Below are positions 4,983 through 64,000 of a DNA stretch of 64,000 nt, in pieces. The stretch's first letter is position 1. Every line of letters starts with the position of its first letter. Source of the stretch: Branchiostoma floridae. Taxonomy: Eukaryota > Chordata > Leptocardii > Amphioxiformes > Branchiostomatidae. The notes under the pieces are model-generated. The model was given only the letters and a program-made list of their open reading frames with translations, did no database searches and was not told where the DNA came from. The position numbers and the translations under genes are program-made. Where the stretch lies: NCBI RefSeq assembly GCF_000003815.2, contig NC_049981.1:20116581-20180580 (forward strand), read 5' to 3'.

Positions 4983-5602
4983 TAAATATCTAACAGACAT
5001 TCAAGCACTCTGTGAATTTTATTGTGATAAACAAGATTGGGCTATTTGGTGAAGTTAAATCAGGAATCGTCTAAGATTATAAATATAAATCTGATTTATA
5101 GAGGCAGTGTCTTATTAGTCTGTGTAACGCAAATTCCAATTAAATCAGGCAAATGCCTTATATATTGTTCTCAAAATTATTTTGTACCTTTAGTACCTAC
5201 AAAATGAAATTTGATTGAATTGATCTTTCTTATATTTAAGTTTTAAATTATGAAATCTTTTCCTTCAGTTTCAGTTTATACAATTGTATCAAGTTCAGGT
5301 AACAGGTGGGCATTTGGAGCCCTGAATCCACTTGAGAGAAAACAGCACCAGTTCTATTCTGGTTATAGAATGTGATGTGCCAAGCTATTTCCACTCCCCA
5401 TGGATAACAACTATTCTGTTTGGGAGGAAATTTAGTGTAAACAAACTCTTATATGTCTAGTAGAATTCTTGACCCTTAACCACATGCCTCTTCTATAATC
5501 ACAAACAAGTCTTAAGTTTCTGGAAGCTCTTGAATACCAGCTGTAACACTAGTTCACCTTTATCCACCAGGTAACCCTTATCTACCAGTTTTTAAAAACA
5601 GT

Positions 5603-5702
5603 GTATTTAGGGATATCAAGTCGATGGACAGTGATTTAAAACTACAATATTGAAATACTGCAATTTCAAACCATTATCCATCGACTTGATATCCCTAAAT
5701 AC
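5603..5702. mobile_element. Short inverted-repeat element (MITE-like)
   Basis: Two perfect 26-bp inverted arms (5603-5628 and 5677-5702, starting GTATTTAGGGATATC) enclose about 48 bp of AT-rich DNA. Both sides are flanked by a similar TTTTTAAAAACA tract, which could be a target duplication. There is no coding capacity. A short nonautonomous DNA transposon is the simplest reading; the superfamily is not determined. Confidence 0.7.
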
Positions 5703-6290
5703 CTTTTTTAAAAACAACGTATCCATATGTAAACTAGCAAATTACAATCCGATGTTTGCCTTCTTCGTTTCCAAGCAGCAGAGTATCAACTTGTAGACGT
5801 GTTCCATCATGTTGAATACCAATGGGAGTTTAAGTAAGTGATCAATCAGACAAAGCTTCCACAAGACCTAACAGAGGGGGTTGTGTAAATAGTGCAGAGC
5901 AATGTTTTCTTCTTCTTGATAGTTTGAGCAAACATCTGTATCTTTCTGATTTCATGCCAAATACGTAACGTGAACTGAAAGAGTATCTTAAACCCTTGTC
6001 ACATTATATCATGGGGTGAAAAAGAGAAAGCTGAGAAAAGGCATGACATCACAAGAACAGAAATCTAACCATAATGATAGTAATTATCACATAGATGATA
6101 ATAGTTCTAACCCATGTCAACACCAACAATAATCACAATGAATAACAAGAAATAGCCCTAATTTCTAGGCTGATTTTCCTCTAAAGATGACGGTAGAAGC
6201 AAGAGATGATTATTTGCTACAAGCTGAAAAGAAAAAGGAAAGAAACCAAAGAAGAGTCTTTCAAATTAATGGAGGGTAATGTTCCTATGA

Positions 6291-11744: not shown

Positions 11745-14700
11745 GTGTATCAATGGTTTATTCAAACATACATATACATACATACATGGATATACTAAAA
11801 CAACGTTGCAGCCTTTCATACAATGCTGTAAAACTGGCTGAATTAAGTTAGTTTTAGTCTTAAAAGCATCTTAATATATACAATATAACATATTTAACAA
11901 TAATTGCTGCACACAAAGGCTTACATGAGCAGTAATCAAGATTCCATGTAGTAGTCATGTGACTATAAACATGCTATAAATCAGTATTTAAGAGTGTGGA
12001 CAAGTATGGAATAGCACTGTTTCTGTACCTATCATGTCTGGCAAAAGGTATGCTAAGCTCGAGCCCTCGTTTTAAGTCTCTGTTGTGAACTTCATTACGG
12101 GTAGCTGGCAACCAGCTTCGAAAAATGGGTGAATTAAACATGGATTTCGCGAACTTAAGACATAGAAATTCTCTTCTTGCTTTTAAAGTGTTCATATTTA
12201 GCCTACATAGAGCTTCGGTATAACAAGTATATTCGCTGCCCAGAATGATTCTTAGCGCACGCTTTTGTATGCGTTCTAATGCATCCGATTGTTGACATGT
12301 TAAACCTGGATGCCATACTGGGGCCGCATATTCCATGATAGGTCGGACATATAATAGGTAAATCTCACAGAGATCTTCAGTGCAGACACCAAAGCGTTTT
12401 AGTTTTTTAAGCAAAAAAAGGCGACAGCTTCCTTTTTTTATAATGACGTTAGTATGTTTTCCCCATTTCAAGTCCGCAGACATCCAGATACCTAGTATAC
12501 AGGCATCTTCAGTGTACTCCAAGGCTTTGCCATTCAGTAATAACACAGGGGGTAGAGGGGGATCCTTCATGAAGGAAATACACATTAATTTGCACTTATC
12601 ATCGTTCAATGTCATACGGTTTTCGGATGACCATGTATCTAGTTGGTTAATTGTTGTCTGCATTGAGCTCTCTTCACTGAATAATCTACTCTCTTTTAAC
12701 GACAGATCATCAACATACTTCCATCTATCCAGAAAAAATTGCATTGCATCATTCACATATACTAGAAACAGGATCGGCCCTAGTTTTGTCCCCTGTGGGA
12801 CACCAGAGGCAATTTTTTCCCAACTGGAAATAACGCCTCGGTACCGGACACATTGTGTACGCTCAGTCAGAAAATCACAAAGCCATGGTAAAATACAAGT
12901 ACGCACACCACATGTTAACAATTTACGGATTAAGATAGTATGATCAATTCTATCAAACGCTTTGCTAAAATCAGTCAGCAAAACAGTGTGGATGCTTTTA
13001 GGAGTCTCAGCACCGCGAAGAATTGAATCAATCATACTAATCAAGTAGTGGACAGATGAGCGCCCTTTTCTACTGCCATATTGATTTGGATCCAGAATTT
13101 TGTCAATGTCTTGGAAAATCCATTTTGAAATGAACGATTCAAACGTTTTCATAAAAACAGAAGTAAGTGATATTGGTCTTAGATGCTCTACTGACGCCGG
13201 GACTTTCTTTGGAATTGGGGCAATAATGGCTTCTTTCCATTGTTTGGGAACACGTCCCTCTTCCAATGAGCAGTTGAAAATATGGGCAAGAATTTCACTA
13301 AATTCGACAGCAAATGTTTTGACAATTTTCGGGGAAATGTTATCAGGGCCGCAACTTTTCCTGGCATCAAGGCGCTTCAAGATTTCATGAACCTCATATG
13401 AATGTATATGCGGAGGTTTGGAAGGAGAAGGCAGGTAAGATGGCAATGACTCAAGATCAAGGCATGGAAGTTCGTTAACAATGTCAGAAAAGTGATGATT
13501 GATTACATTAGCAATATCATTGTCAGTCAGAGGAGTGCTGCTGGGCACAGACACTGATACGCTCCGCTTGGAATTTAGTATGTTGCGTAGACACACGTGC
13601 CACCTGGCCGGATTCTCCTTCTTTAACACATGGATCTTACAAACATAATATCTTTTCCTTGCCTCAATACACAGTCGATTTACACTGTTTCTTAGCTTTC
13701 TATACAATGCCATATTGCCAGAGTGAAAAGCTTGCTGTCTCTTCTTAATAAGTGATTTGATATGGGGAGTAATCCATTCCTTATCAGTATTGTGTTTAAC
13801 GACAGATTTCATAGGGAAATGATGGTCTATTCTACTTTGGAGAGTTTTATAGAAAATATTAGCTTTAGTTTGGATGTCGTGGGCATCAAAAACTTCAATC
13901 CACGGGTGGGAGGAAATCCACCGTCCAAAAGAGCGGACCTCGGAGTCCTTAAAAGGGCGAATTTTTGACCTCGTTTTCGTATTGATAGCTTTGTAGTCAC
14001 TGGGAAACCATAACACAGTATTGTGGTCGCTCATTCCTAAGGGCTCCTCAATCCTAGGAATTTGGTAAAATGGCTTCAAATTGGTAATAATTAAATCAAG
14101 AATGGCTTCTCCCCTAGTAGGCTGTCTGACCAGCTGTTTTAGCTGGGCTCCATTAAGAATATTGCTAATATCACATCTATTAAAATCTCCTAAAACACAA
14201 ATTCCTGCAAGTGGGTACCTAGTATTAATCTTATCAATGCTATCAATAATATGTCTACGTAACAATTCTTGGCTGGGTGACGCCGGAGGATTATAAACAG
14301 CACAAATGGCAATATTTGCAATGGAACGTGGTAGCCAAAAGGGCTTAGCCCATACCCACAGACATTCAAGTTCTGTAGGTATTTCTATGAAGTCTATGAT
14401 CTCAGCATGTATGGAATCCTTAACATATATAGCAACACCCCCACCACGGCTTTCCTTACGACATATAGAGAAAAGGTTAAAGCCATCAATATGTGTACAT
14501 TCCGGAGGGTGTTCATGAGTAAACCAAGTTTCAGAAATTACGGCTATATCAATCCCATAACTATTCAAAGAATCAGACAAATCATCCATCTTATTCAACA
14601 ATGATCGAGCATTACTAAGCAAAAAAGATGGAGCAGTACAGCAGAGATGGAGCATTACAGCAGGCCCCGAGTGTCTATACTTGATGATATCTATTTCTGT

Positions 14701-14760
14701 CATTGCATTTTTAGTTTTAAAGTGATATTTGATTCATAAGTTAAAGATATTTCCAGAACT
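11745..14760 (-). mobile_element. CR1/L2-type non-LTR retrotransposon (LINE)
   Basis: The element is defined by the intact ORF2 on the minus strand (11,974-14,703). About 220 bp of 3' sequence follow it, with TGTATG-type short repeats and an AATAAA near 11,757-11,765. The 5' end is not defined: no target-site duplication was found, and non-LTR copies are often 5'-truncated. There is no ORF1 upstream in clear form. Family placement (CR1/L2/Jockey group) is inferred from the apurinic-type endonuclease plus reverse transcriptase without a recognisable RNase H domain. Confidence 0.75.
11974..14703 (-). CDS. LINE ORF2: endonuclease-reverse transcriptase, 909 aa, intact
   Basis: This single uninterrupted frame encodes the retrotransposition enzyme of a non-LTR element: target nicking followed by target-primed reverse transcription. 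The N-terminal apurinic-like endonuclease shows NARSLLNK (31-38), SETW (57-60), LGDFN (171-175) and MSDHN (224-228). The reverse transcriptase shows LLTDFSKAFD (575-584), SGVPQGTKLGP (633-643) and the catalytic YVDD (663-666, in place of the more usual FADD). The C-terminal part has the conserved MEYAAPVWHPG and LERIQKRALRII motifs of CR1/Jockey-type elements. There is no frameshift or stop, so the copy looks young or still under constraint. The first ATG falls just before the endonuclease, so little N-terminal sequence is missing. Class assignment is firm; exact clade is inference. Confidence 0.9.
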   Translation of the reverse strand: MTEIDIIKYRHSGPAVMLHLCCTAPSFLLSNARSLLNKMDDLSDSLNSYGIDIAVISETWFTHEHPPECTHIDGFNLFSICRKESRGGGVAIYVKDSIHAEIIDFIEIPTELECLWVWAKPFWLPRSIANIAICAVYNPPASPSQELLRRHIIDSIDKINTRYPLAGICVLGDFNRCDISNILNGAQLKQLVRQPTRGEAILDLIITNLKPFYQIPRIEEPLGMSDHNTVLWFPSDYKAINTKTRSKIRPFKDSEVRSFGRWISSHPWIEVFDAHDIQTKANIFYKTLQSRIDHHFPMKSVVKHNTDKEWITPHIKSLIKKRQQAFHSGNMALYRKLRNSVNRLCIEARKRYYVCKIHVLKKENPARWHVCLRNILNSKRSVSVSVPSSTPLTDNDIANVINHHFSDIVNELPCLDLESLPSYLPSPSKPPHIHSYEVHEILKRLDARKSCGPDNISPKIVKTFAVEFSEILAHIFNCSLEEGRVPKQWKEAIIAPIPKKVPASVEHLRPISLTSVFMKTFESFISKWIFQDIDKILDPNQYGSRKGRSSVHYLISMIDSILRGAETPKSIHTVLLTDFSKAFDRIDHTILIRKLLTCGVRTCILPWLCDFLTERTQCVRYRGVISSWEKIASGVPQGTKLGPILFLVYVNDAMQFFLDRWKYVDDLSLKESRLFSEESSMQTTINQLDTWSSENRMTLNDDKCKLMCISFMKDPPLPPVLLLNGKALEYTEDACILGIWMSADLKWGKHTNVIIKKGSCRLFLLKKLKRFGVCTEDLCEIYLLYVRPIMEYAAPVWHPGLTCQQSDALERIQKRALRIILGSEYTCYTEALCRLNMNTLKARREFLCLKFAKSMFNSPIFRSWLPATRNEVHNRDLKRGLELSIPFARHDRYRNSAIPYLSTLLNTDL

Positions 14761-39470: not shown

Positions 39471-42400
39471 TCACGACTTTGAGACTTTGTCTCCTCCACC
39501 TTTATCTGTCACGTTTTCTGTTGTGTTCTTATGGCTACCTTGCAGCCCAGTGGTCACATTTCCATCCCCACTACCCTGTTCCTGACTGTCCTCACTCCCA
39601 TCAAACCATGAAGTGTTGCTGATGAAGGTTTGCTGTGTGTCTTCATCAGAACCACCATTACATTGGGTACCTGCAGTCCCACTCTCTCCTCTCTCATCCT
39701 CGCAATCTGACAGAGAGTCAGAATCATCATCTGACTCCGAATCCGAGAAAACCTCCGCTCCTTGAAAGACGTAGCGATTGGGAGGGACAAACTGGTAGGA
39801 ATGGGCTGTATGGTAAGAAAAAATTGAGTCTTAGAGACAACTTCAACATCTTCTATATTGTTGACTTAAGTGTACACATAAGATAAATCAGTGGTCTGAC
39901 AAAATCTGGTCTTATCATGTGGACAGGTGGCTACTATAAACAGTACTCTTAATGATTGTATCATTGTGAAAAAATAGCTAAGGGGCCAACAAAATGAGGT
40001 CACATTCACCAGGTAGTTCTTATGTACAGGTTCGACTGTAGTGCTAACGTATTACATAATTACACTGTGGAATTGGAATAATACCTACCTGGTAGTCTCT
40101 TTGCTATGCTTTCTTTGGGCTGACGCTTACTCTGCCAGCATCGCCGTAGAGCCTCCATGTCATGCTCTGACTCAGGGTCTCTGTCAAACTCATCTCCCTT
40201 GGAGCCTGGACTTGACGCCTGGTCTCCTGTTCTACTCAACTCTGGGGAAGTCTGTTCCTGACTGGTAGATGATACCTCTGCATCCTGATTGGCTGGGGAA
40301 GACTTTGGTTGCTCCTGGTTGGTTGACAAACAATCTATTCTTTGGTTGACATGTGCTTCTGTTCCCTCATTGGTTGTGGTTGAATTTGGACTGTGTATGT
40401 TGGACAAGGGACCCTGTGTACAGTCTGTGGTGCAGCTGGTTTCTGGAGCTACTTTCTTTGGGGGAATTTCGGAAACCTGCTGCAAAGGAGGGCCTGAATC
40501 GGACTCAGTGGTCCAGCCTTCTCCCAGGAGTCGACAGATTTCTTCCACGATGACGTCACTGTCTCCGAGAAGCTCAACGTCAAATGTCATGTGATTGAGA
40601 GGTTCCCTATTGATCAAAACCTGCGGCACCTCTGCTGGTATGGAACCTGGGGTAAAATGGACAGACATGTTTCTGTAAGTGTGTATAATGCATAAAAAAG
40701 GACAAAGGACATCTATTCAGTTGAAACTGATCGTGTTTAAGAACATGTTTATGTTTTATGATTTAGCTACCAAATCAGACAGGCTATCATCATAGCATAC
40801 TCACTTCTTTCTTATATCAAATATTGTTTCTAGTTATGTAATGGACTTAACAAGCCCCAAAATGTAACTTACTTGGTATGAGTGCCACAGGCCTGACTTT
40901 GAGTCGGGACCCAATCACAATCAGCAGGTCCACTTTGTCCTTGTCCACTGTGATGGTTTGGTGAAACTTGTCGGACAAACCCTCACCAAAGAACACAATG
41001 TCAGGCTTCATGACAGCCATGGGACCATCTGGTGGACACTGCGGACATCTTGGCACCACCTGGACATAGAGACAGCAAGGTCAGGATGAAAAGTGGATAG
41101 GTTTCTAATCACAACATTGAATGTGTTTTGACACTTGATAATTTGCATCCAAACTAATCCATGTAACTGGCACTGACCTGGTTAAAGATGTCCTGTCTGA
41201 TTTCTTCACAGTCCACTTTTCTCTTACAGTTTGTACAGGATGCAGTAGCAAAGGAGCCTGGGGAAAAAGAGGAGGAACAAGTTTTAAAGATGTTTGCACC
41301 TGTAGGATATCTTTCTATCATCATCATCATTATATAGCTACCATGACACTACAAAATGGTATATCACTGCATTACATGCTACAATGCACTTATTTGAATG
41401 GTAGAATTTAAGATGTAAAAAAAAAGCTCAATTTCTTCCATAAATTCTTATGTTGGTGGCAACTGTAAGATATTTAGTTTTTCTCATCATCATTATAAAC
41501 CTACCATGACACTGTATGATCCTGTGTATGCCAGCCTCCTGCTCCAGGGTGTCAATGTTTTGAGTGTAGTTCCTCAGCAGCTTGCCCTGCTCCTCCAACT
41601 GCCTGATGAACCTGTGGCACCGAGATGGCGTATACTGTCCGGGGTAGATGGCCTTGGGAGATGAGCAAAGAAAATTTGTTACTTAAATCTTAGGGGGGCT
41701 TTTACTAGACTGTCCAACATTTACTTCATCATAATCAAAATAATGTACAGATTATTCTGAATAGAAAGCCCTGTTTGGCATACCTTGGCAAACTTGAAGA
41801 AGGGCAAAGGGTTTTTTCTGAAGTAATCAATGTCAAACATGGCTTGAGGATCTGGCAAGTCGGGGAAATCCACTGCAAGCTTGGCGTAGATTCCATCCCG
41901 TGATCGGAAATCTGGAATGCCACAGGAGACAGAAACCTGCAGAAATGATGATAGATTTTCAATTTATTTCATTTAAATTCTTTTTTCAATCTTAACAGAA
42001 ACATTATGCACAACAACAGAAGTCACATTGATTATATCAAGAAGATAAGGTTCAAGCATCAACTTCTGCAAGTAAAAGAACTCAACACACTTATCAAGAA
42101 GAGTATTCTAAGTAGGTGTGCCATAGTGAAGCTGCACTGCACTACCACTAGCTACATGCGTCATGCTTCACCTAAGTTAAACTTTTTGATTTGCCTTTTA
42201 TATTCCAGACTGCCCCAAAATAAGATGCAATCATCACCATACTAAACCATGTACAGATTAGGTATGTTCATAACACTCATACTTACCCCTGCACCAGTCA
42301 GTACAACAATATTCTTGCTCCCCTGAATCAATCTAACAACGTCCTGTAAAGTGTTGACATTGGGAAGCTTCTCCCTCTTTGGTGGCTCTGTCAGGATGTT

Positions 42401-45400
42401 GACCACTAGTTTCCACAGGGTGAGGGAGTCCAGGTTGGGAGGGAGGACCATGTTGGTTGGTAGTAGCTCCTGGAGGATGGTCCTCGGGTTAATCCCCATC
42501 GTCATCTGGTGCTGTACCCACTGCATAGGACCTAGGGAATGTTCCACAAACTCTCAGCATTGGATATTAACCACCTCTTCTCTTCACTGCTTACAAAATA
42601 CTGCCACATTTTTAACCTAGGAAGTATGCATCAGATCCAATAGTTACTACAGTCAAACCTGTATATGAAGACCACTCAAGGGACCCAGCAAAAGTGGTCT
42701 TCATACATAGGTGGTCTTTATATAGAAAACAACGTGGCGGCAGTAAAGAAACTGACAAGTCAGAACATCGATAATTTATGCATGAAACGCATTTGTCTTT
42801 ATTATTTACAAGATAACACGATGTTATACAATGCTAAAATTACGTATACTTATGTTATTCTTCGTATTAAAAAGTATTATATTTGTAATGATATTTATAA
42901 TAGATATGTTATAAGAATGATTTGAAAAAGAAAAACGGTGGTAATTCGTCCGGCATTTTGCAGTGTGCCGTGCCGTGCCGGTGCTGGCATAATTTTTTCT
43001 CATACCGCGGCCCTAATGTGACAACAAATATTCTGTAACTGAGGTATCACGCGGCTGCACGCCGGCACATCGTGCACATCGACGAACATTTTTACCCAAA
43101 ACGTAATCGCTATGATCAGAAAATGTTGCAGGCTTCTTCTTTGCGGGAGTTTTGTTTTTGTGTGACGTGAAAAATGCGACATTATTTTCGGGGTATATTT
43201 TGGAAACCCACGCTAACTCTCAGCACACTTTACGGCTGCATCGAAACCCAAAATTACGCTAGAGACACCATAAATTCACATATTAACACATGTTTCCACG
43301 GAAAGTTCTTTGGATTATGCATTTTTAACTAGGATGGTGCTACGTAATCGTGGAAAATAGCGTTCTTTTGCGTTTTAAAACGTAAGTCTTTGAAACAAGA
43401 TGGCGTCGAGCTGGCAGCAAAGTTCCCATGATGCACCGCTCCAACCAATCAGAGCGCGAGATTGTCGGGGACCAGGTTTGACTGTACCTACATACCAGTA
43501 CTAGTTTGAAACTGCTGGTATTCAGATCATTTGGAATTTGCCTAATGACAACAGTATTGTACACTGTGATAAGTCTGTGCTGATGAAATCTAATTTCATT
43601 GCATTTACATGTATACTAGAAGTTGATGTATTTAATATTGTATGTTTGTTTATGTAATGATACAGGCCTCTTCGCCTGAAATAAAACCAAAATAAATATA
43701 ATATCTGGCCAGACTTTGTGTGAATGAAATTGTGCGAATGATTTTGTCTATTTTTTCATCACACCTGTCATACTCGGAGTCCCTCAGATAGGACATTAAA
43801 TGGAGGTCCCGTGTCTGGGGGACTTAAAACCCTGTAAGTCAATCCACTAACTAACTAACCTGTCATACTTTATCAGTTTTTCAAAGTATTTGAATGGCAT
43901 AGTCTTTACCTGATATAGTGGTGGCCTGCCAGTCCCCTGTACTGGCACTGGAGACACTGCTGGCTGTTTCTGCATCACTGTCCACCTGATGTTCTGTACT
44001 CTGTCCCTCACCGCTGGGGTCGCCCAGCAGACAGTTCAGACTGGGGTCACCTGAGAGGTCAGCGAGCTCGTGGTGCTCCTCCAGGTTGTGTTGGCTCAGG
44101 TCAGGGTCAGGGTCGAGGTGGTCACTATCGCTGTGCATCCACCCGTTGGTGTAATCAAACTCATTTACATGCTCACCAAAGCCATTGGTGTGGTGGAAGC
44201 CTTGTAAAAAAATACATTGATTCAAATTTGAGAATAGATTTTGTTTATCGATTGTGAAAACTTGATACAGGCCTAGATATACCCACTGGCAACATATAAG
44301 TTACAGGAAAAAAAGAAAAAGTAGAAATGTATAATAATATAATATCAATATCAATGTCATGGTCACAAAAGCCATGGGTTTGGTGGAAGCCTTTGTAAAA
44401 ATACATTGCTTTAATTTTGAGAATAGATTTTATGTATCAACTGTGCAAAAACTTGATGTGGGTCTATAAATATTCCCTGAAAACATATGATTTACACAAT
44501 TACTGGAAAAAATAACTACGGCTGCAGTTACATATGTACAAAAATGTCAAAACTGATTCTGCAGGCCAAGATTCTGCACCCCCCTTACTGTGTGATATCC
44601 TTTCCAAGTTATTCAAAGGTACATGTATTTACTCTAGGAAGAAGCATTACAATACTAGTATGATAACCTACCATTGAGCAGACCATGGTCACCTGTAGAC
44701 CCAGGTGTGCAATCATAATTACTCCAGGAATCATCATAGGGTGGGGTCGGGGTCCCTACATCTGCAACAGACAATGTCAATGATAAGTCTTGTTGCCACA
44801 AATTAATGATTTCTGAACTTTCAATTCCCCAGAAGGGTAAAGCAGTTGTCGATTGAGACCAAGCACAGTGGTTTCTCTAATGTAACTTGTTGACTTTAAG
44901 GGGTCACCCTAAACCTGAAAAATTGGGCAACTCTTTCATTAACATGCCAATTGGAGCTAGGGATTCAAACTCCTGGCCTCAGGGTCTGCCTTAATTAGAC
45001 GACTACACCATTTGCCATGGATGTGGAAAGCAAGAAAACAGGGTAAACTAAAACTTCCTGAAATTGCTAACAAAGCATACAGTAAGTGACACACAATGAT
45101 ATACATGATTAGTCGTGTTAAAAGTCGTTAAAAGTCTTGTATGTTGGTGCAGATCTGGGAAAACACATGATGAGGAAAACACGAAGGTCCCTTTAAATTT
45201 CCCGCCACCCACACAAGGCACCCTGGGATATGGGACGCCAACCAAGGCAGATTTGCATATGTTATATCACCGAAAGTGGGTAACTACGGCGTCAAATAAA
45301 CTCAAATCGTCACAAAAACACAGAAAACAGACCAATTTTCACTTTATAAGGGAACTACAAGGTTTCAGTCGAGTCCGTGGCAACCGCATTCCGGGACATA

Positions 45401-46637: not shown

Positions 46638-49600
46638 ATGGATTCTATCTTCAGCTACCAGAGGGATGAGGATGAGGACTTCTACAAGATTCTGGGATGT
46701 GATGAGCAGTCAACGGTGAAGAATTCTGTGATCATACTCATAGAGAAGAACATTAGCCTGGGTACTATCCTGGTAGTTGTTCACTCCTATGTTCGCTCCT
46801 GCTACCTGTCTGGGGACCTACACATTCAAACCGTTTGGTGATAATGTCAGTTATGAGTTCTAGAGGGATTGTTTGATGACAACAGACCCTCCCACAAGTT
46901 GACAGAGGGCTTTTCGGGTGTTGGAACGCCTGTTCTTTTTGTTCAAACGAGCGCTTGAACCCATTCCATAATTGTCTCTTGTGTAGGGACCTATCAGCAC
47001 CCCAGATAATTTCAGAGATTTAAGTGGTCAAGGATCCCAGACGGAACAGCAGCGAAGCGACTGTATATAATTAAGGGTTAATGACCCGCCCCAAGGTGTA
47101 TATGGTGTCATAACACCTGGTCCTTTGCTATAACCACCGAATAAAACCACCAAGTGAGCGAAGCGAACGAGGTGGTTTTATGAGGCGGTTATAGCAAAGG
47201 ACCAGGCGTTATGACACCATGTAGACCAAGGAACAGGCGGGTCATTAACGTTATTATCATATAGCCTACCCAAACTTGCAAACCCCTTGGTACTATACGT
47301 GTGAATTCCTTTGTCAAATTTTTGAAAGTTCACATTTGTTCCTTGGTACATACATTTGTTTACAGATTGCAGTTTGAAACCAAAATATTCAAAACATTGC
47401 AGTCTTTCGCTTTTTAGAACAACAAAACTCATTATCAATGTTAACAGAAGGAGCTATTTCCTCCTTGCAGTCTGCACTTATTCCCTCTGCTCTGGCATAT
47501 GTTTCGCTCCTTTTGATTGGCAAAACCATGCATATCTTGTGTGTATCGCTCAGTCTGGTTGGTCAGAATGAGTCGACACCGGCANNNNNNNNNNNNNNNN
47601 NNNNNNNNNNNNNNNNNNNNNNNNNNNNNNNNNNNNNNNNNNNNNNNNNNNNNNNNNNNNNNNNNNNNNNNNNNNNNNNNNNNNCGTGTCGATGCAAATC
47701 GACAACGGTGCCGGTGTCGATTCATTCTGACCAATCAGAAGGAGGATACACACCGGCCTGGCCGGAATCTAAGTGTTACAGCGTCATAACCAACGTGGAA
47801 TGGGGCCTTCTGATTGGTCCGCGGCGCCTGGCTATATGATAATGTATAATAAAAGTCGCAGCGAGAAGTGACTGTATATAGTGTATAATAAATGCCGGAG
47901 CGAGCTACCTTCCAGCAAGGACGTTACATCAACGTCCTTGCTTCCAGATGGTACCCAGACTAGAAGAACATACCATTGCAATTTCTGTCAAAATTTTATG
48001 TTGACGCCATGTTGTCACAATGTCTGTGGAAGTCATCTCTTGAGAAGTATCAATCCTTGATCCTCAGAAATAATCATTGAGTTGGTTCAAATGAAGAGTG
48101 AGTGCACACAAATAGTTATTTGTTGGAATGCATTCAGCATGAGTAAATATTGAATGCACAAATCACTGTTTAAAAAATGTACAAACTTTATGGAATTTGC
48201 ACAAATCACTATGTAAAGCACATGAATCTTATGGAATACGCAAAATTGGCAGACCACTATGTTGGGTGAAAATATGCTTCTGAGTGTTTCTACCCATAAT
48301 TATATTTTTTCTTTAAAGCATTGATTGAATAAGATTCGTACGTTTTGAATAGTGATTCATGTCTTTTGCATAAAATTTGTTCAAATTTCTTAAAATGTGT
48401 GCAAATTCTTAGGCAACCCCAATGAAGGAACTGTGAAGCTTATGAGTTGTGCTAAAGGGCAGTTATACCAGCCATATTGATACAGATAGCATGGAGAATA
48501 GATCAGATAGTCTAAGACTTGAGGCTGCTTTTTTCAGACAGAGCAGATTAATCAGGAGTTCAAGCTGAAGGCTCTGGACTGTCATCCTGACAAGAAGCCA
48601 GATGATCCGGAAGCAGGTGAGATACTTCTCATATTTGTAAAGACATTGGCAACTTGGAAGGTATCATAGGTTTACATTGAAGTAATCAAGACTATATCAT
48701 CAAAATTTATGGCAGGAATAAAGATAATACAATGTAGCAGGGAATATACTCCTTAATTGACATGAGCAACTTCTTCAGCAACAAGATGAAGAAGGTGAAA
48801 AAATTAATTTGATTTTTCAAATTGCCAGACTTGGTGTCTTCCCAAATTTTATGACTGGTTTGTAGACATATGTCCTGAATCGCAATGTCTACTGTGACAC
48901 ATATTTAGGTAAATTGTCTTACAGGAAATTAGATTTCATGTGACAATTCAAATTACAAATTACTCTCGAGGTCAAAGGTATGGTGTGAAATATGACCATC
49001 ATAATGTAAATGTTTAAGAATTTAGATCAATGTCTATTCATTTTACTGTTTGAAATTCCAATAGATCAAATCAAATCAGAATGTACCAGAACCTGCTGCA
49101 CAACTGTAAAAGAATTATCCTAATTCCTATGTAACAAAAAAGCTGTCCAACTGTTTGGAGAGTCAATATTTAACATTTTAACGTTTAGTCCCAGATGGAC
49201 AGGGCCATCTATTCAGTTTTCATTTGTGACTTTTTCCAAACAATTAAGTGCATTTTTTAAAGGCTAAATATGTGATGTCCATGATATGATAGCTGAAAGA
49301 TATCAGAGACTTCAGCAAGCGAGGGACGTTCTTGTCAATGAAGAGAGCCGGTCCAAGTATGACCACTGGCGCCGGAGTGGTATTGCCATGCCGTACAAAC
49401 AGTGGGTGTCTATGGGCAAGTCTGTGCACACTGTGAGTTGCAGTCTGTATTTCCTCTTACTTAAAGCACAGGATCCTCCTGTACTAGGTGTAACATCTTC
49501 CACTCTGACAAGGTTGTACTGTAAATGTCTTCGAGTTTGTGTGACATGATATTGCGGACAGGAGTTAAAAGATGGTTTGCTGGCATTTTTAGTTTGTGGT

Positions 49601-51212: not shown

Positions 51213-52502
51213 CTGCAATACTGTCATGAGCAGTATGGGGGAGTTCTTTTCATTTGGCAGATCCACTTGAGAAAGCAATGTGTAGGGACTAGGCTATGCA
51301 TGTGTGTATGTCTCCATTCCATTCAGGTATCTTATTTATTGCTCAATAAAAGTATGATAGGTAGTCTTTGTTTGTTTCATGTGGTCTTACAGTTATATTT
51401 GTACATACTATAGTTTTATCAAACTCATTTCTTATGTTGTATTTGTGTACAGACTACAGTACTATTACATAAACGTACAATTGAATTATATTGTGTCATG
51501 TTTAAACTGGGATGATATGAGGTATACAGACATGTTATATGACCTCCTTGGATTAATCTGTAGTATCATTGCTGCATTTACATTATGTAACAGTGGGTAA
51601 TGTCCTTAAGACTACTGAAAGACAAGATACCTAAACATACTAGTGCTGAAGGTTTTTCCTGTAACATGCCAGCTAGCCAGCACTAGTGTGCCGGTGCCAT
51701 TTGGGNNNNNNNNNNNNNNNNNNNNNNNNNNNNNNNNNNNNNNNNNNNNNNNNNNNNNNNNNNNNNNNNNNNNNNNNNNNNNNNNNNNNNNNNNNNNNNN
51801 NNNNNAGTAATATTTGTCTTGACATCCCTTGACAGCCATCAGTACTGTCAGAGTGTTTGGCCAAGTTATGCTGCTAATAAAATACTAGTAGTGTTCATGT
51901 TTGTATTCTATTGTGCACTGTCCTGCCTTTCATATAATTTTTCTTTCACTGAGCTCATACTAAGTCTGCTCACTTGGTTGCTTCTGTATGTATACAAAAG
52001 CAACCAAGAAAATGGAACAAAGCTAATAAAGGCTTGCACCCGGCGGTTTTGTGCTGCCCGAACCACAAACATAAAACCACCACAAACAAGTCTGCATTTA
52101 CAGTACTCTACATGATAGCTAGTTCTTCTGAGATGAAGGTAGTGTTTGATATTTCCTAGATTATAGCAAACATAGATACATTCAGAATGTACTGAGGTTG
52201 TCTGTAGGGTTGAGATTTTCACTGCTGAAAGAATGACTACTGTCCAACTTGAAAATCCACACAACTCTTGTGATGTGTGCATGGCCTGATAGCTTTTATT
52301 TCTCCACTGTTCTTCATCACCAGATCATAGGACAAAATCATTGTTTGTGTATTTGTACACACAGGTAACAAAACAAGTACCTGTACCCATAATCCGTTAA
52401 TTTGGGAATTAGCATTCCCTCAGAGCTGTGAAGTACAATAATGTTATCAGCTGTATATGCCCCTTCTAGCTGGTCAACTACATATGATTTAAATTCCAGT
52501 TG
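51213..52502. other. Convergent space between DNAJC12 and MRPL1
   Basis: Contains the DNAJC12 3' UTR (signal at 51,345-51,350), a 100-N gap, and AT-rich DNA with no recognised gene. MRPL1 ends from the right at 52,503; no strong polyadenylation signal for it stands out. Confidence 0.6.
51706..51805. other. Assembly gap (100 N)
   Basis: Exactly 100 N. The left flank has GCCAGCTAGCCAGCACTAG and GTGCCGGTGCC repeats, so a repeat is the probable cause. Frames spanning it are artefacts. Confidence 0.98.
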
Positions 52503-59040: not shown

Positions 59041-59133
59041 ATGAATCTAACATCCTACATATCAGATATTGATATAAAAGCTCTTTGCTCAATAAAAGCT
59101 CCTTGCTACTACTAACGCAAGGCTACGCGGGTC

Positions 59134-59462
59134 ACGGGTTCCTCACTGGGCTTCCAGTGGCGAAAATATATTCAAAATGGCGTCATCACTGGACGCCCAG
59201 TGACGAAGAAAGTTCGTCACTGGTTTCCTAGTGATGAATTACTTTGTTCCAGTGATGACTCGGGACCCAGTGATGAACTCCGCTCGTCACTCGGGGCCCA
59301 GCGATGAACGTCATTCGTCACTGGGCACCGAGTGCGGAACCATCAAGGTCACCGGTTCCTCACTGGGTTTTCCAGCGATCAGTGACTCTTCGGCACTAGA
59401 CACCGAGTGATGAAATTATTTCGGCACTGGGCTCCCAGTGACCACGTTCTAATAGCACTAGA
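59134..59462. repeat. Array of CACTGGG-CCCAGTG hairpin units
   Basis: At least eight short palindromic units of the form TCACTGG(G)N4-6CCAGTGA(TGAA) are strung at about 30-50 bp intervals near the left terminus of the foldback element. Two more are at its right terminus (near 61,950-62,000). Units differ by point changes (CACTCGGGGCCCAGCG, CACTGGGCACCGAGTG). Confidence 0.8.
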
Positions 59463-61046
59463 ATGTTCCAGTGCTGAGTTCGATGTGCAACAAAAACACC
59501 CTAATTCACATGTCGCCATAGCCGTGTTACTGTTAGATTTGGTCCGGGAGTGTGAGGACTTGCAGAGGCGACGTTAGTATAACTTTAAGTGCTAACTTTG
59601 AAATCCCCTCAACTGAAACGATGATTCCTTTTTCTTCAGTAAACTGAATATTTGTCGTCACTGGTTTACCAGCTGAAGTTTCCTCATCACTGGAAAACCG
59701 GTCAGCCTTTTTACCGGAAAACAGAGGAAAACACAGTTAAACACCGGAAAACACATGAAGGAGTGTATAATCTACTGAAATACAGTATGTTTTGATGAGT
59801 AAACATGACAGGTCGCTATGTTTTGCCACAGAATAATCTACATATGGCCCTGGAATGAAGAAATCGTCAGAAAATGCTTGATACTACGGGCCGGACCGCC
59901 GCCACCACCCGGCGGACTGGACGTGCTGATTGTGCAAAATTATGTAACGTTGACCGTAGAAGAAGCAAGCTTTATTAAGAAATACAGAAAACAGATTCTA
60001 TCACAATCCGAGTAGATTCATATATATTATACTTATGCCAATATATAACAGATTTTTGCACTGAAGTTCGGTAGGTATCAGCTGTCTTGTTGTGAAAGTA
60101 TCAGACCCCGCTCACCCCCACCTAACTCCTTCTGCTTTTCCCCCTACCCGTTCACCTTTTCCCCCGTCATTCCTCTTTACCCCCGGAGTAATTCCGCTTT
60201 TCCCCCGCCCTTTTCCTTTTCCCCCAATGGCCGCCGTCAACCCGAATTGCACGTAGTCGACACGAAAATCGTTCGGAAAGTAACAATAACGGTTGCGCCA
60301 CGGAACATGAACTAGCCTATGCTCTAGTACACATACTGGGCCACCTTTCTGCCAAGTGGCGTTTCACAACTCCTTCCAGTCTGATCTGAAAAGCCATGTG
60401 CCGTCAGCAGCGCGTAGTTTGTGGCGCTCCACTACTACTTCCTGGAGGCTGCGTGGTGGATCGCCTGAGGCCGGCGCGCTGTGTGTGCTATGACGATCGG
60501 GCGACTCGCTAAGTTCGGCATTGATAAGGTTACCCCGGGAGTCTACAGGTCGTTCTGTTAAAAGAGGGACACACCGACCCAGGTTGGAAACAACGCAGGT
60601 AAAAGTCCCCGTGTCGATCCGAGGAGCAGGATCGCACCCGTGAATAGGCGTCTCAGCCCGACCAGCATAGTAGGACCCAACTATTTTTTATCTCACTGTG
60701 ACTTGAATGCTAAGTAACGACAGAGTGCATTTCATAATATACCTTTTATTTTTTTTTCACAAACTCGCCATGTGTCCATTTACAGTACTTCATACATTTC
60801 TTGCTACTCGCATGTATTGTACGCCCTGCTGCATTTCGACTGTGTTCGTACACGTTCTGCATGCCATATATCAAAGATCCAACCACCCTTCCTTGAGTTA
60901 CACTGTTCACAAACACAAATACAAACACACAGTACTGAAACCAAAGCATACGTGACGTGACGTATTAAAGACGCCACAGCCCACATTTTATGAAGATTTA
61001 CATCAAGTGAAAACTTGAAATGCTATATATATAGCTACATGTATGC

Positions 61047-61134
61047 ACAGGCAGAGAATGCGTACAATAAGCGTCGGAATCGTTCTATGCGCATGGAACG
61101 ATTCCGACGCTTAGTGTACGCATTCTCTGCCTGT
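61047..61134. repeat. 88-bp near-perfect palindrome
   Basis: The 39-bp arms (ACAGGCAGAGAATGCGTAC at the left end, GTACGCATTCTCTGCCTGT at the right) pair almost perfectly around a 10-bp centre TATGCGCATG that is itself nearly palindromic. It lies in the spacer of the foldback element and is the strongest hairpin in the window. Confidence 0.9.
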
Positions 61135-62039
61135 CTTTTGAATTGATTCTGTACTCGCTTTGTACCTCATTCCCATACTATATTGATACCATCACTTCAC
61201 CATTGCATTTATAAGAATTATAAGATTCTGATCTTGTAGCCAAGCCTAATGATTTTCTGAAACGCTGCAAAACCCAGCCACCACTAGTTGCATTTATTTA
61301 CGTGGAGCACCACAAACTACGCGCTGCTGATGGGACATGCTTTTTCAGTTTAGACTGGGAAGGAGTTGTGAAACGCCACTTGGCAGAAAGGTGGCCCAGA
61401 ATGTGTACTAGAGCATAGGCTATTTCATGTTCCGAGGCGCAACCGTTGTTGTTACTTTCCGAACGATTTTCGTGTCGACTACGTGCAATTTGGGTTGACG
61501 GCGGACATTGGGGGAAAAGGAAAAGGGCGGGGGAAAAGCGGAATTACTCCGGGGGTAAAGAGGAATGACGGGGGCACAGATGAAGTACAGCGGGGGTTAA
61601 GAGGAAGTCCGGGGAAAAGGTGAACGGGTAGGGGGAAAAGCAGAAGGAGTTAGGTGGGGGTGCCGCTAAACAAACATGTATTCTGCAATGAAAACAAACA
61701 TGGCCGCCGGGTGGCGGCGGCGGTCCGACCCGTCGTCTCATGCATTTTCTGACGATTTCTTCATTCCAGGGCCATATGTTGATTATTCTGTGGCAAAACA
61801 TAGCGACCTGTCATGTTTACTCATCAAAACATACTGTATTTCAGTAGGTTATACACTCCTTCATGTGTTTTCCGGTGTTTAACTGTGTTTTCCTCTGTTT
61901 TCCGGTAAAAAGGCTGACCCCTGGAAAACTAGTGACGATAAATATTCCCCACTGGTAAGCCAGTGACGACGCGACTTCATCACTGGATACCGAGTGATGA
62001 GAAATTTACCCGTGACCTCGGTAGTTTTGTACTACTAAC

Positions 62040-64000
62040 ATAATTTTGGGCAAGGAGCTTTTAAGAGTTGAAGCGATCCTCAAAAATTTTAGGCACAGTT
62101 CTATAGGTTGCTAGTGAAACAACAGCCGTTCAACAGCAAATTCTTCCTAAAAAAAAAAAAAATTATTGGTTATCTGTTTAACGTTATCCCATGATGATCG
62201 CATGGTTTCTTTGTCTGTGTAACAATTCTGGCATGAACAAGTCTGGTAGCTACATCTACAATCTCTATGAAATAAGTCTGCAATCTAAGAATATCCAACA
62301 GTCAAATTTATCAGGTGAAATTTGTATATTTTCACTCACAGGTCACTAAGGCGCGAGCATTTCGACAGGGCGCAGCCATCTTGGATCCGGAAATTCCCGA
62401 ATGATAATTAAGGGTTTCCGACTATTTCCGAAGTCTACCTCGTGCAGCAAGAGATGATTTTGTCCTACTGTGTCTTTAAAATGTCCCCAAAGTTAGAGTA
62501 TCATCATGTAACAGGCAGCTGTACTGATTTGGCAGATATCGGTGTGCCTCGGAGCCGAGATATCACCAAAGCACAAAAAATACTGTGTTTCTTTGTGAGA
62601 TTTTTTTCGCTGTTGTCATCACACAAAAATTGCCAGAATATCATACGTCACATCATAGGGGGAGATGGACATTTTGTTAGACATTTGACATAAATGAATA
62701 CTAGTTATGTTACATTGAAGCCACAGTTAAAACTTACAGATACTTGAAAATCATTTTACTTGTTTACACTTTTTACATATGCATCTTTACGTTGTTTGAT
62801 AGAGACAGTAATTTTGTTTGTCACCCCTCCAGAATAGTTGCGTCCAGAATTGGCCAATCACACATCGAGCTTATAATGAATTTCGGAGCTTCGCATCTCA
62901 GTGGCAGCCATGTTGGTTCACAGGTTTTGTCGCGGATTTGTGCACTGGCTTCAGCGCTGATTTTCTCTATATTTTTGTGCCCGTGAGATGACAAGATATA
63001 CACACAGGTAAAGTACAGGAAACGTAGATTCGATAGATCATTGTATTTGTGTACAATCGTTCGGTTTTAGAGCGTCCAGGTGAAATCCTTGTGGGTACGT
63101 CAAGCAGATCCTCTCGCCAACACAGCTTGACCCAAGGGTTTTGTGTGGGGGATCTCTGACATTTTCCCCTTCCTCATGCACAATTCGCCCCGTTTTCTCA
63201 ATTCTCTTGATATATTCCACAGTTTCTTTGTATACGTGGGCCACATTTTGTCCGTCTGTGTTATTCTGGTGGCCGATCTGGTGGTCTAGAGCTGAAGCTG
63301 CCGTATTTTCTATTGTCTCAGGGGTCTTTTCTGAGCAAATTTTCCCTCCCAGTGTTTTGTCTGTTGTAGCTAGCCCGCCTTTGTTAAACCAAACGGCATT
63401 TGAATTTCACACTCGTGTGCATTCGGATAAAATTTCACAGCTTACAAAATATATAGAGAGGCTTTCTTTCCTTTTTCTTCCTCGGACAAAGGTGAGTTGG
63501 AGGCTTATCCCCTCGTAGGTCATGTTTAGGTGACAGTACTTGAATGTGGGGACCAATTTTGTTCATAAATTTTAGTGGTGACCCCTTTCATAGTTCATCT
63601 TGTGTATAATTTAGGGCCAAATTATACTGTAGAATGACAGATAGCACAGTGGTATAGAGACAGATGCACAGATTTTAGAAATGTATGGAAAAAACATAAG
63701 CAAATGCAGGAAGTTAATGTTATATTATGTAGAATTGAGGACACGCTTCAACACTCACGAACATCTGATTTGAAACTGCTGTATGTATTACAAGGCAAAC
63801 ATTATTGCTAATATGTACATGTTTTGTTTGAATCTGTGTACAGATGTTAATACCAACATTATCAAAGAGTCTATTTTCCATATGTTTTACCATTAAACTT
63901 TAAAGATCGTACTGGCACTATTCTACCAAGGCAAAGAAGGGAATTGCCAGATTTGAACTTTAATTCAAGCCATATCTTGCATGCACAAGCCTTATTGCAC
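62040..64000. other. Window end: CpG-richer stretch with unresolved open frames
   Basis: Between 62,340 and 63,500 the DNA is less AT-rich, with CCATCTTGG and GCCATGTTGG (YY1-like, minus-strand starts) and a CCAAT box at about 62,855. That looks like a promoter region. A minus-strand frame open from 63,406 to 63,038 and an overlapping plus-strand frame (63,141-63,518) are both unassigned. The last 450 bp are AT-rich and show nothing. Confidence 0.4.
62340..62379 (-). CDS. Candidate MRPL1 first exon (mitochondrial targeting start)
   Basis: On the minus strand the 40-nt segment after CCAAG opens MAAPCRNARALVT and meets a good donor (GACCT|GTGAGT). The composition (Ala/Arg-rich, no acidic residue) fits a mitochondrial targeting start and resembles the MAAAVRCMGRALI start of human MRPL1. 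The exon end phase (1) matches the phase needed by the first firm MRPL1 exon (57,418), so direct splicing is possible. It would leave the targeting region very short and requires a 4.9-kb intron holding the foldback element. It could equally belong to another gene. Confidence 0.35.

Follow-up and report, generated by a model that had tools for sequence, protein, structure and literature searches.

The stretch of Branchiostoma floridae DNA analysed here, which we call the window, comprises 64,000 nucleotides of contig NC_049981.1 (positions 20,116,581 to 20,180,580), and within it a 2.9-kb span at 59108-62039 carries three transposable elements lodged one inside another. An outer element, E1, is interrupted by a second, E2, which is in turn interrupted by E3, an inner foldback that contains a full-length match to the 7SL (SRP) RNA. 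Searches of the host genome (513,431,437 bases in 431 contigs) recovered copies of each element, and the boundaries, target-site duplications (TSDs) and uninterrupted sites of all three can be read directly from the window and these copies. We put the probability at roughly 85% that the locus is a nest of DNA transposons of non-autonomous appearance, E3 within E2 within E1, the innermost having taken up a 7SL gene together with its 3′ flank. A nest as such is ordinary; the content of the innermost element is what we consider new.

Elsewhere in the window, the minus strand holds a LINE-type element at 11974-14733, an open frame of 919 codons encoding endonuclease and reverse transcriptase domains, and at 40060-44300 open frames that we take to resemble exons of SIRT1; a Pfam scan of two open frames in that interval returned no sirtuin domain. 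Runs of N at 47585-47684 and 51706-51805, about 100 bases each, are apparent assembly gaps, and further palindromes lie at 5588-5715 (~130 bp) and 47061-47264 (~200 bp).

The outer element is bounded by two copies of the 9-bp duplication ACTACTAAC, at 59108-59116 and 62031-62039, which a pattern count found to be the only occurrences of that sequence on the plus strand of the window, and E1 itself, 683 bp on the plus strand, is split into a left part of 582 bp (59117-59698) and a right part of 101 bp (61930-62030). The left part opens with the terminal repeat GCAAGGCTACGCGGGTCACGGG, continues as short palindromic repeats to about 59450, in part with a period of ~31 bp, and ends in a unique stretch. 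This internal run of palindromic repeats is the hairpin array of the element, and its length differs among copies. The two ends of E1 align without gaps as an imperfect inverted repeat, 77% over 22 nt.

Searched with its outer left 593 bases, the genome yielded 54 matches to E1, with 40 of 132 candidates scored; grouped, these represent at least 40 loci including the window, and of the other 39 the 20 that scored best were fetched. This choice of the best-scoring copies, which holds for E2 and E3 as well, biases the sample towards intact ends. Each of the 20 has the left part (element positions 1-582) joined directly to the right part (2805-2913), the two overlapping by some 9 bases, and reads CACTGGAAAACTAGTG without interruption at the point where an additional 2.2 kb, between two copies of CTGGAAAAC, is found in the window. 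The fetched copies are 679-799 bp long and lie 1.3-4.0% away from the E1 majority sequence, compared with 2.2% for the window. An exact 9-bp duplication flanks 15 of the 20, or 16 if L034, whose left end has lost 1 nt, is counted; eight of nine bases agree at L033 and L048, and the remaining two, L035 and L045, have no TSD.

Several features of E1 target sites may be recorded here. In the window, the insertion site sits between the arms of a perfect 14-bp inverted repeat, TAAAAGCTCCTTGC, at 59093-59106 and 62050-62063, with a near copy of the motif at 59076-59088. A general liking of E1 for hairpin targets was considered and rejected, the inverted repeats at the 20 other sites being at most 7 bp long. 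Across the duplications of the window and 17 copies, A or T occupies position 4 in 16 of 18 and position 6 in 17 of 18, and G or C occupies position 5 in 14 of 18, a bias that hints faintly at a symmetric target preference. Separately, a stretch of 60 nt at L051 (396-455), situated some 1 kb away from one of the true 7SL genes, is 82% E1-like (E 1.9e-7).

The 2.2 kb inserted into E1 starts and stops with 217-bp inverted repeats at 97% identity, and these are the terminal inverted repeats (TIRs) of E2. The TSD of this second element, CTGGAAAAC, lies at 59690-59698 and 61921-61929, the left copy being part of E1, as comparison with E1 copies establishes. E2, also on the plus strand, is 667 bp long and consists of a left part of 414 bp (59699-60112, with its TIR at 59699-59915) and a right part of 253 bp (61668-61920, with its TIR at 61704-61920); the TIRs align over 216 nt at 97%. 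A genome search with the left part gave 76 matches, with 40 of 120 candidates scored, and all 76 rows were examined. Thirty-three of them, the window and 32 others, extend to the side on which E3 lies. In 30 of these 32, an inverted TIR follows within 120 nt, hence without E3, and for the other two the inverted partner is not among the matches listed; the corresponding gap in the window is 1,597 nt. All four fetched E2 copies have a single CCGCT where the window carries E3, and each is flanked by a 9-bp TSD (CAAGAACAG, ATTCTTTTG, CTGTAGCAT and GAAAGTCAT), that of ATTCTTTTG becoming 10 bp if the preceding C is counted, so that L070 allows a 9- or a 10-bp reading.

E3 is a foldback of 1,550 bp (60113-61662, plus strand) with CACCCCCACC ends, and it is flanked by the 5-bp duplication CCGCT at 60108-60112, itself part of E2, and at 61663-61667, assignments supported by copies of both elements. 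Its arms, 320 bp (60113-60432) and 361 bp (61302-61662), contain repeated units of the CTTTTCCCCC type and make up much of the element, as befits a foldback. Between them lie the 7SL-like sequence (60400-60686), whose initial 33 nt fall within the left arm, and a spacer (60687-61301), the latter including at the centre of E3 a near-perfect 88-nt palindrome with 44-nt arms at 95% (61047-61134). Six of the 19 other divergent 7SL loci described below were fetched as E3 copies and proved to be five whole elements and a lone end. Their similarity to the window is confined to 60113-61662, and they terminate in CACCCCCACCTAACTCC, from which L055 differs by one base, at position 13 of one end. The five whole copies, 1,544-1,872 bp long, all stop at these positions, and an exact 5-bp TSD flanks each (TCCAG, CGTGT, ATAGG, CCTAT and ATATT).

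A genome search with the right arm of E3 gave 40 matches, with 40 of 170 candidates scored. Among the matches listed are 11 inverted arm pairs spanning 1,544-1,714 bp and three long ones, of 5,323 bp (C3:1197044-1202366), 8,253 bp (C19:13959853-13968105) and 9,739 bp (C16:13099936-13109674), which could represent autonomous forms or have received additional insertions. Between two E3 subfamilies, in the four of nine pairs computed, the arm differs by 2-3% and the interior by about 6-12%, which suggests constraint on the arms or exchange between them.

The first reading of this DNA, made from the sequence alone, had proposed a single intact-looking 2.9-kb foldback element of Mutator-like type. 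Much of what it had seen holds good: the same 9 bp lie outside both ends, the terminal sequences align without gaps, and inverted arms of several hundred bases are present, the inverted pairs within the span being 216 nt at 97%, 227 nt at 96%, 52 nt at 100% and 57 nt at 88%. It is these features, the exact outer duplication, the inverted ends and the long inverted arms, that speak for one asymmetric element. Against it, the inner 2.2 kb is absent from all 20 fetched E1 copies and has a 9-bp duplication of its own, and E2 and E3 are each found alone elsewhere with their own duplications. The uninterrupted E1 sites and the independent copies of E2 and E3 thus already refute a single 2.9-kb foldback, and we regard it as scarcely credible. 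The left arm is not, as had been thought, an arm extended by the hairpin array: the long arms are those of E2 and E3 and the array is that of E1, so the asymmetry arises from the nesting. The Mutator-like assignment survives for the outer element, whose 9-bp duplications fit it, and not for a foldback with asymmetric arms. The sequence-only reading had further proposed to ask whether copies elsewhere share the boundaries and carry 9-bp duplications; the ends at 59108/62039 are indeed common to the copies, most of them with TSDs, and the element between those ends is there about 0.7 kb long, not 2.9 kb.

The three elements account for the span exactly, since 683 + 9 + 667 + 5 + 1550 gives 2914, the length of 59117-62030. 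A nest of only two elements was dropped, as the 7SL-bearing copies place the end of E3 inside E2. We suggest that E1 would have arrived first, that E2 then inserted into E1 and E3 into E2, and that each moved by cut-and-paste with a transposase supplied from elsewhere. Three of the 32 open frames listed for the span (at 60364, 59809 and 61544) were scanned, with no Pfam match.

What the sequence-only reading had taken for an unrelated spacer is far from featureless. An Rfam scan of the window found there, at 60400-60686 on the plus strand, a match to Metazoa_SRP covering the whole model (1-299 of 299) at 78.9 bits, compared with a gathering score of 70, with a run of T at the 3′ end. The genome-wide 7SL search produced 5,658 first-look candidates, of which 26 were scored. 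They fall into two groups: six reach 278-287 bits and are regarded here as the true genes, and 20, including the one in the window, lie between 60 and 108 bits. An E3 arm adjoins 17 of the 20 divergent matches (the window included) and none of the six true genes; the other three divergent matches have no E3 arm nearby among the matches listed, 40 of 170 arm candidates having been scored. By local alignment, the 7SL part of E3 is ~72-81% identical to the true genes.

It might be supposed that this sequence is a working RNA gene maintained by selection and used by the element or by its host, and in its favour the core of helix 8 is almost intact relative to the true genes and a T run follows the 3′ end. 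The remainder of the sequence argues otherwise. The 5′ domain is degraded, 23 nt of it missing altogether in L056; the folding z-score is -0.83, no better than shuffles; and between E3 subfamilies the S domain (6-12%) diverges as quickly as the 3′ flank (8-9%) in the four of nine pairs computed. On the strength of the folding score and of the comparison between S domain and flank we reject a working gene as very unlikely. The 7SL sequence of E3 is full-length but decayed and probably no longer working; E3 would have spread after the capture, with its 7SL portion degenerating as a passenger. One pair of copies stands apart: between L056 and L059 the S domain diverges by 8%, but none of 333 flank positions differs.

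How a 7SL gene came to lie in E3 may be judged from the DNA that follows it. Part of the E3 spacer shares homology with the DNA that lies 3′ of a single true 7SL gene, L050 on C9, with a local alignment score of 66, as against a mean of 19.7 and a maximum of 29 in 300 dinucleotide shuffles, and the other five true loci score 18-22. The likeness is old: it amounts to ~62-68% identity in a gapped alignment, L050 matching in two tandem pieces. No similarity (score 12) was found between the DNA upstream of L050 and the E3 arm. One loose alignment runs ~80 nt beyond the end of the 7SL at L054, a locus that is at background in the shuffle-scored comparison. The resemblance of the sequence past the 7SL 3′ end to the L050 flank indicates a capture of chromosomal DNA.

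A retrotransposed copy, whether a SINE or a processed pseudogene, that landed in E3 would offer another account. The match spans the whole RNA, from model position 1 to 299, and retroposons, Alu and B1 among them, are well known to have arisen from 7SL. Against this, E3 runs on past the 3′ end of the 7SL into L050-like chromosomal flank (score 66, shuffle maximum 29), and in the alignment no A-rich tail follows the 7SL. The hallmarks of a 7SL-derived SINE would be an A-rich tail, the lack of TIRs and the lack of source-gene flank; E3 departs from them in having TIRs, TSDs fixed at 5 bp and a source-like 3′ flank. Although E3 repeats, like Alu and B1, contain 7SL gene sequence, these same characters, absent from Alu and B1, lead us to conclude that E3 spread as a DNA transposon, and we hold retrotransposition to be improbable. 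Capture was probably at the DNA level, from the chromosome and not from an RNA copy, to judge by the sequence comparisons. We suggest that E3 took up a chromosomal 7SL gene and its 3′ flank, most likely through repair-gap filling from a copied template or through a template switch, as has been proposed for Pack-TIRs, the choice between gap filling and fork switching being in E3 a matter of inference. The locus L057 carries at 1660-1929 a second, partial 7SL and flank in inverted orientation, 274 nt at 95%, making a foldback larger than the other E3 copies. This inverted duplication, and arms that reach 33 nt into the 7SL, make it probable that inverted duplication extended the arms once the gene had been captured.

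With regard to the enzymes involved, E1 and E2 look Mutator-type. Duplications of about 9 bp accompany E1 in the proportions given above (16 of 20 exact, two at 8/9 and two none) and E2 in the window and in all four copies, and E2 has in addition long TIRs of the order of 200 bp, so that a Mutator-type transposase is the most likely one for both. A TIR of 217 bp compares well with the 215 bp of maize Mu (PMC2774946). The genome contains 27 MULE-domain matches, and the comparison of 20 of these loci with E1-E3, extended by 1.5-kb flanks past which the elements may reach, gave short matches at chance level only (best E 0.025); the best end match in the 20 was 16 of 22 bases, compared with 14 in one shuffled locus.

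E3 would have been moved by an enzyme other than that of E1 and E2, its 5-bp TSDs and CAC ends hinting, if faintly, at one of the Transib/RAG type; enzymes of the hAT or CACTA type are possible. The TIRs of RAG and Transib elements start with heptamers such as CACAGTG or CACTATG, and the duplication length of 5 bp typical of these elements is found in the window and in all five whole copies of E3. E3 starts with CACCCCC and agrees with the heptamers in CAC alone, and because of this mismatch we do not file it under Transib/RAG. Eight RAG1-family matches occur in the genome (L061-L068), seven of them with internal stop codons; none lies inside the three long E3 arm pairs, and the E3 arm matches the eight RAG1-domain loci at best with E 0.94. 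That E3 is a foldback of the RAG/Transib superfamily, that it spread a complete 7SL gene and flank by DNA transposition, and that at least one of the long arm pairs is autonomous, is a combination we offer tentatively and think rather unlikely. In its structure E3 resembles a Pack-TIR foldback, being an element with TIRs and TSDs that encloses host DNA of non-transposon origin.

Several described systems invite comparison. Tm1 of root-knot nematodes is a Mutator/Foldback family with 9-bp TSDs, composite TIRs containing repeated short motifs and many MITE-like copies, and some of its members are thought to carry host sequence, a histone hairpin motif (PMC3169594). The present elements share with it the 9-bp TSDs (E1 and E2), the short-motif repeats, the MITE-like copies and the uptake of host sequence. 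They differ in that Tm1 has a transposase-bearing member, whereas E1-E3 are tied to none among the loci compared, and in that the present duplications measure 9 bp for E1 and E2 and 5 bp for E3, the captured 7SL sitting in the 5-bp element. Tetris and DAIBAM of Drosophila virilis are non-autonomous foldbacks with repeats in long TIRs and TSDs of 8-10 bp, for which no autonomous partner was found and whose placement in the Mutator superfamily relies partly on TSD length (PMC4079207). Both are single elements, with no captured RNA gene in the text examined, whereas the present locus is a nest with 7SL.

For the Pack-TIRs of animals, gap filling is the origin proposed for single-copy elements, and multi-copy ones would result from a switch of the replication fork and subsequent transposition (PMC8277862). 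E3 is like them a TIR transposon with a copy of host DNA, and differs in what it has captured, a Pol III RNA gene plus flanking DNA, at 17 loci; the main text of that paper makes no mention of amphioxus or Branchiostoma. RAG-like and Transib transposons are described as having 5-bp TSDs and TIRs starting with CAC (PMC7204232), both of which E3 shares. Its CACCCCC nevertheless mismatches the TIR consensus printed there as well as the RAG heptamer given above, and no RAG1-like coding sequence is tied to E3 among the eight RAG1-family matches compared. In the literature listings searched, which included few subscription journals, we found no report of 7SL in foldback or TIR transposons, and a search under a name for amphioxus MITEs led to no paper. 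E1-E3 may already be named in Repbase; unless they are, E1 and E2 look new within a kind that has been described before. What is new in E3 is a multicopy foldback of the Pack-TIR type with a Pol III RNA gene.

This nest shows how stacked insertions can mimic the long asymmetric arms of a single element, a situation that copies elsewhere in the genome alone reveal. In this genome, E3 explains 17 of the 20 low-scoring 7SL matches scored, and an annotation pipeline could mistake such sequences for 7SL genes or pseudogenes. A multicopy TIR element bearing a Pol III gene and its flank would show that 7SL-related repeats can arise by DNA capture and not by reverse transcription alone. If E3 should indeed prove to be a RAG/Transib element spreading 7SL, it would add DNA transposition to Alu-type retroposition as a second way for 7SL genes to turn into repeats.
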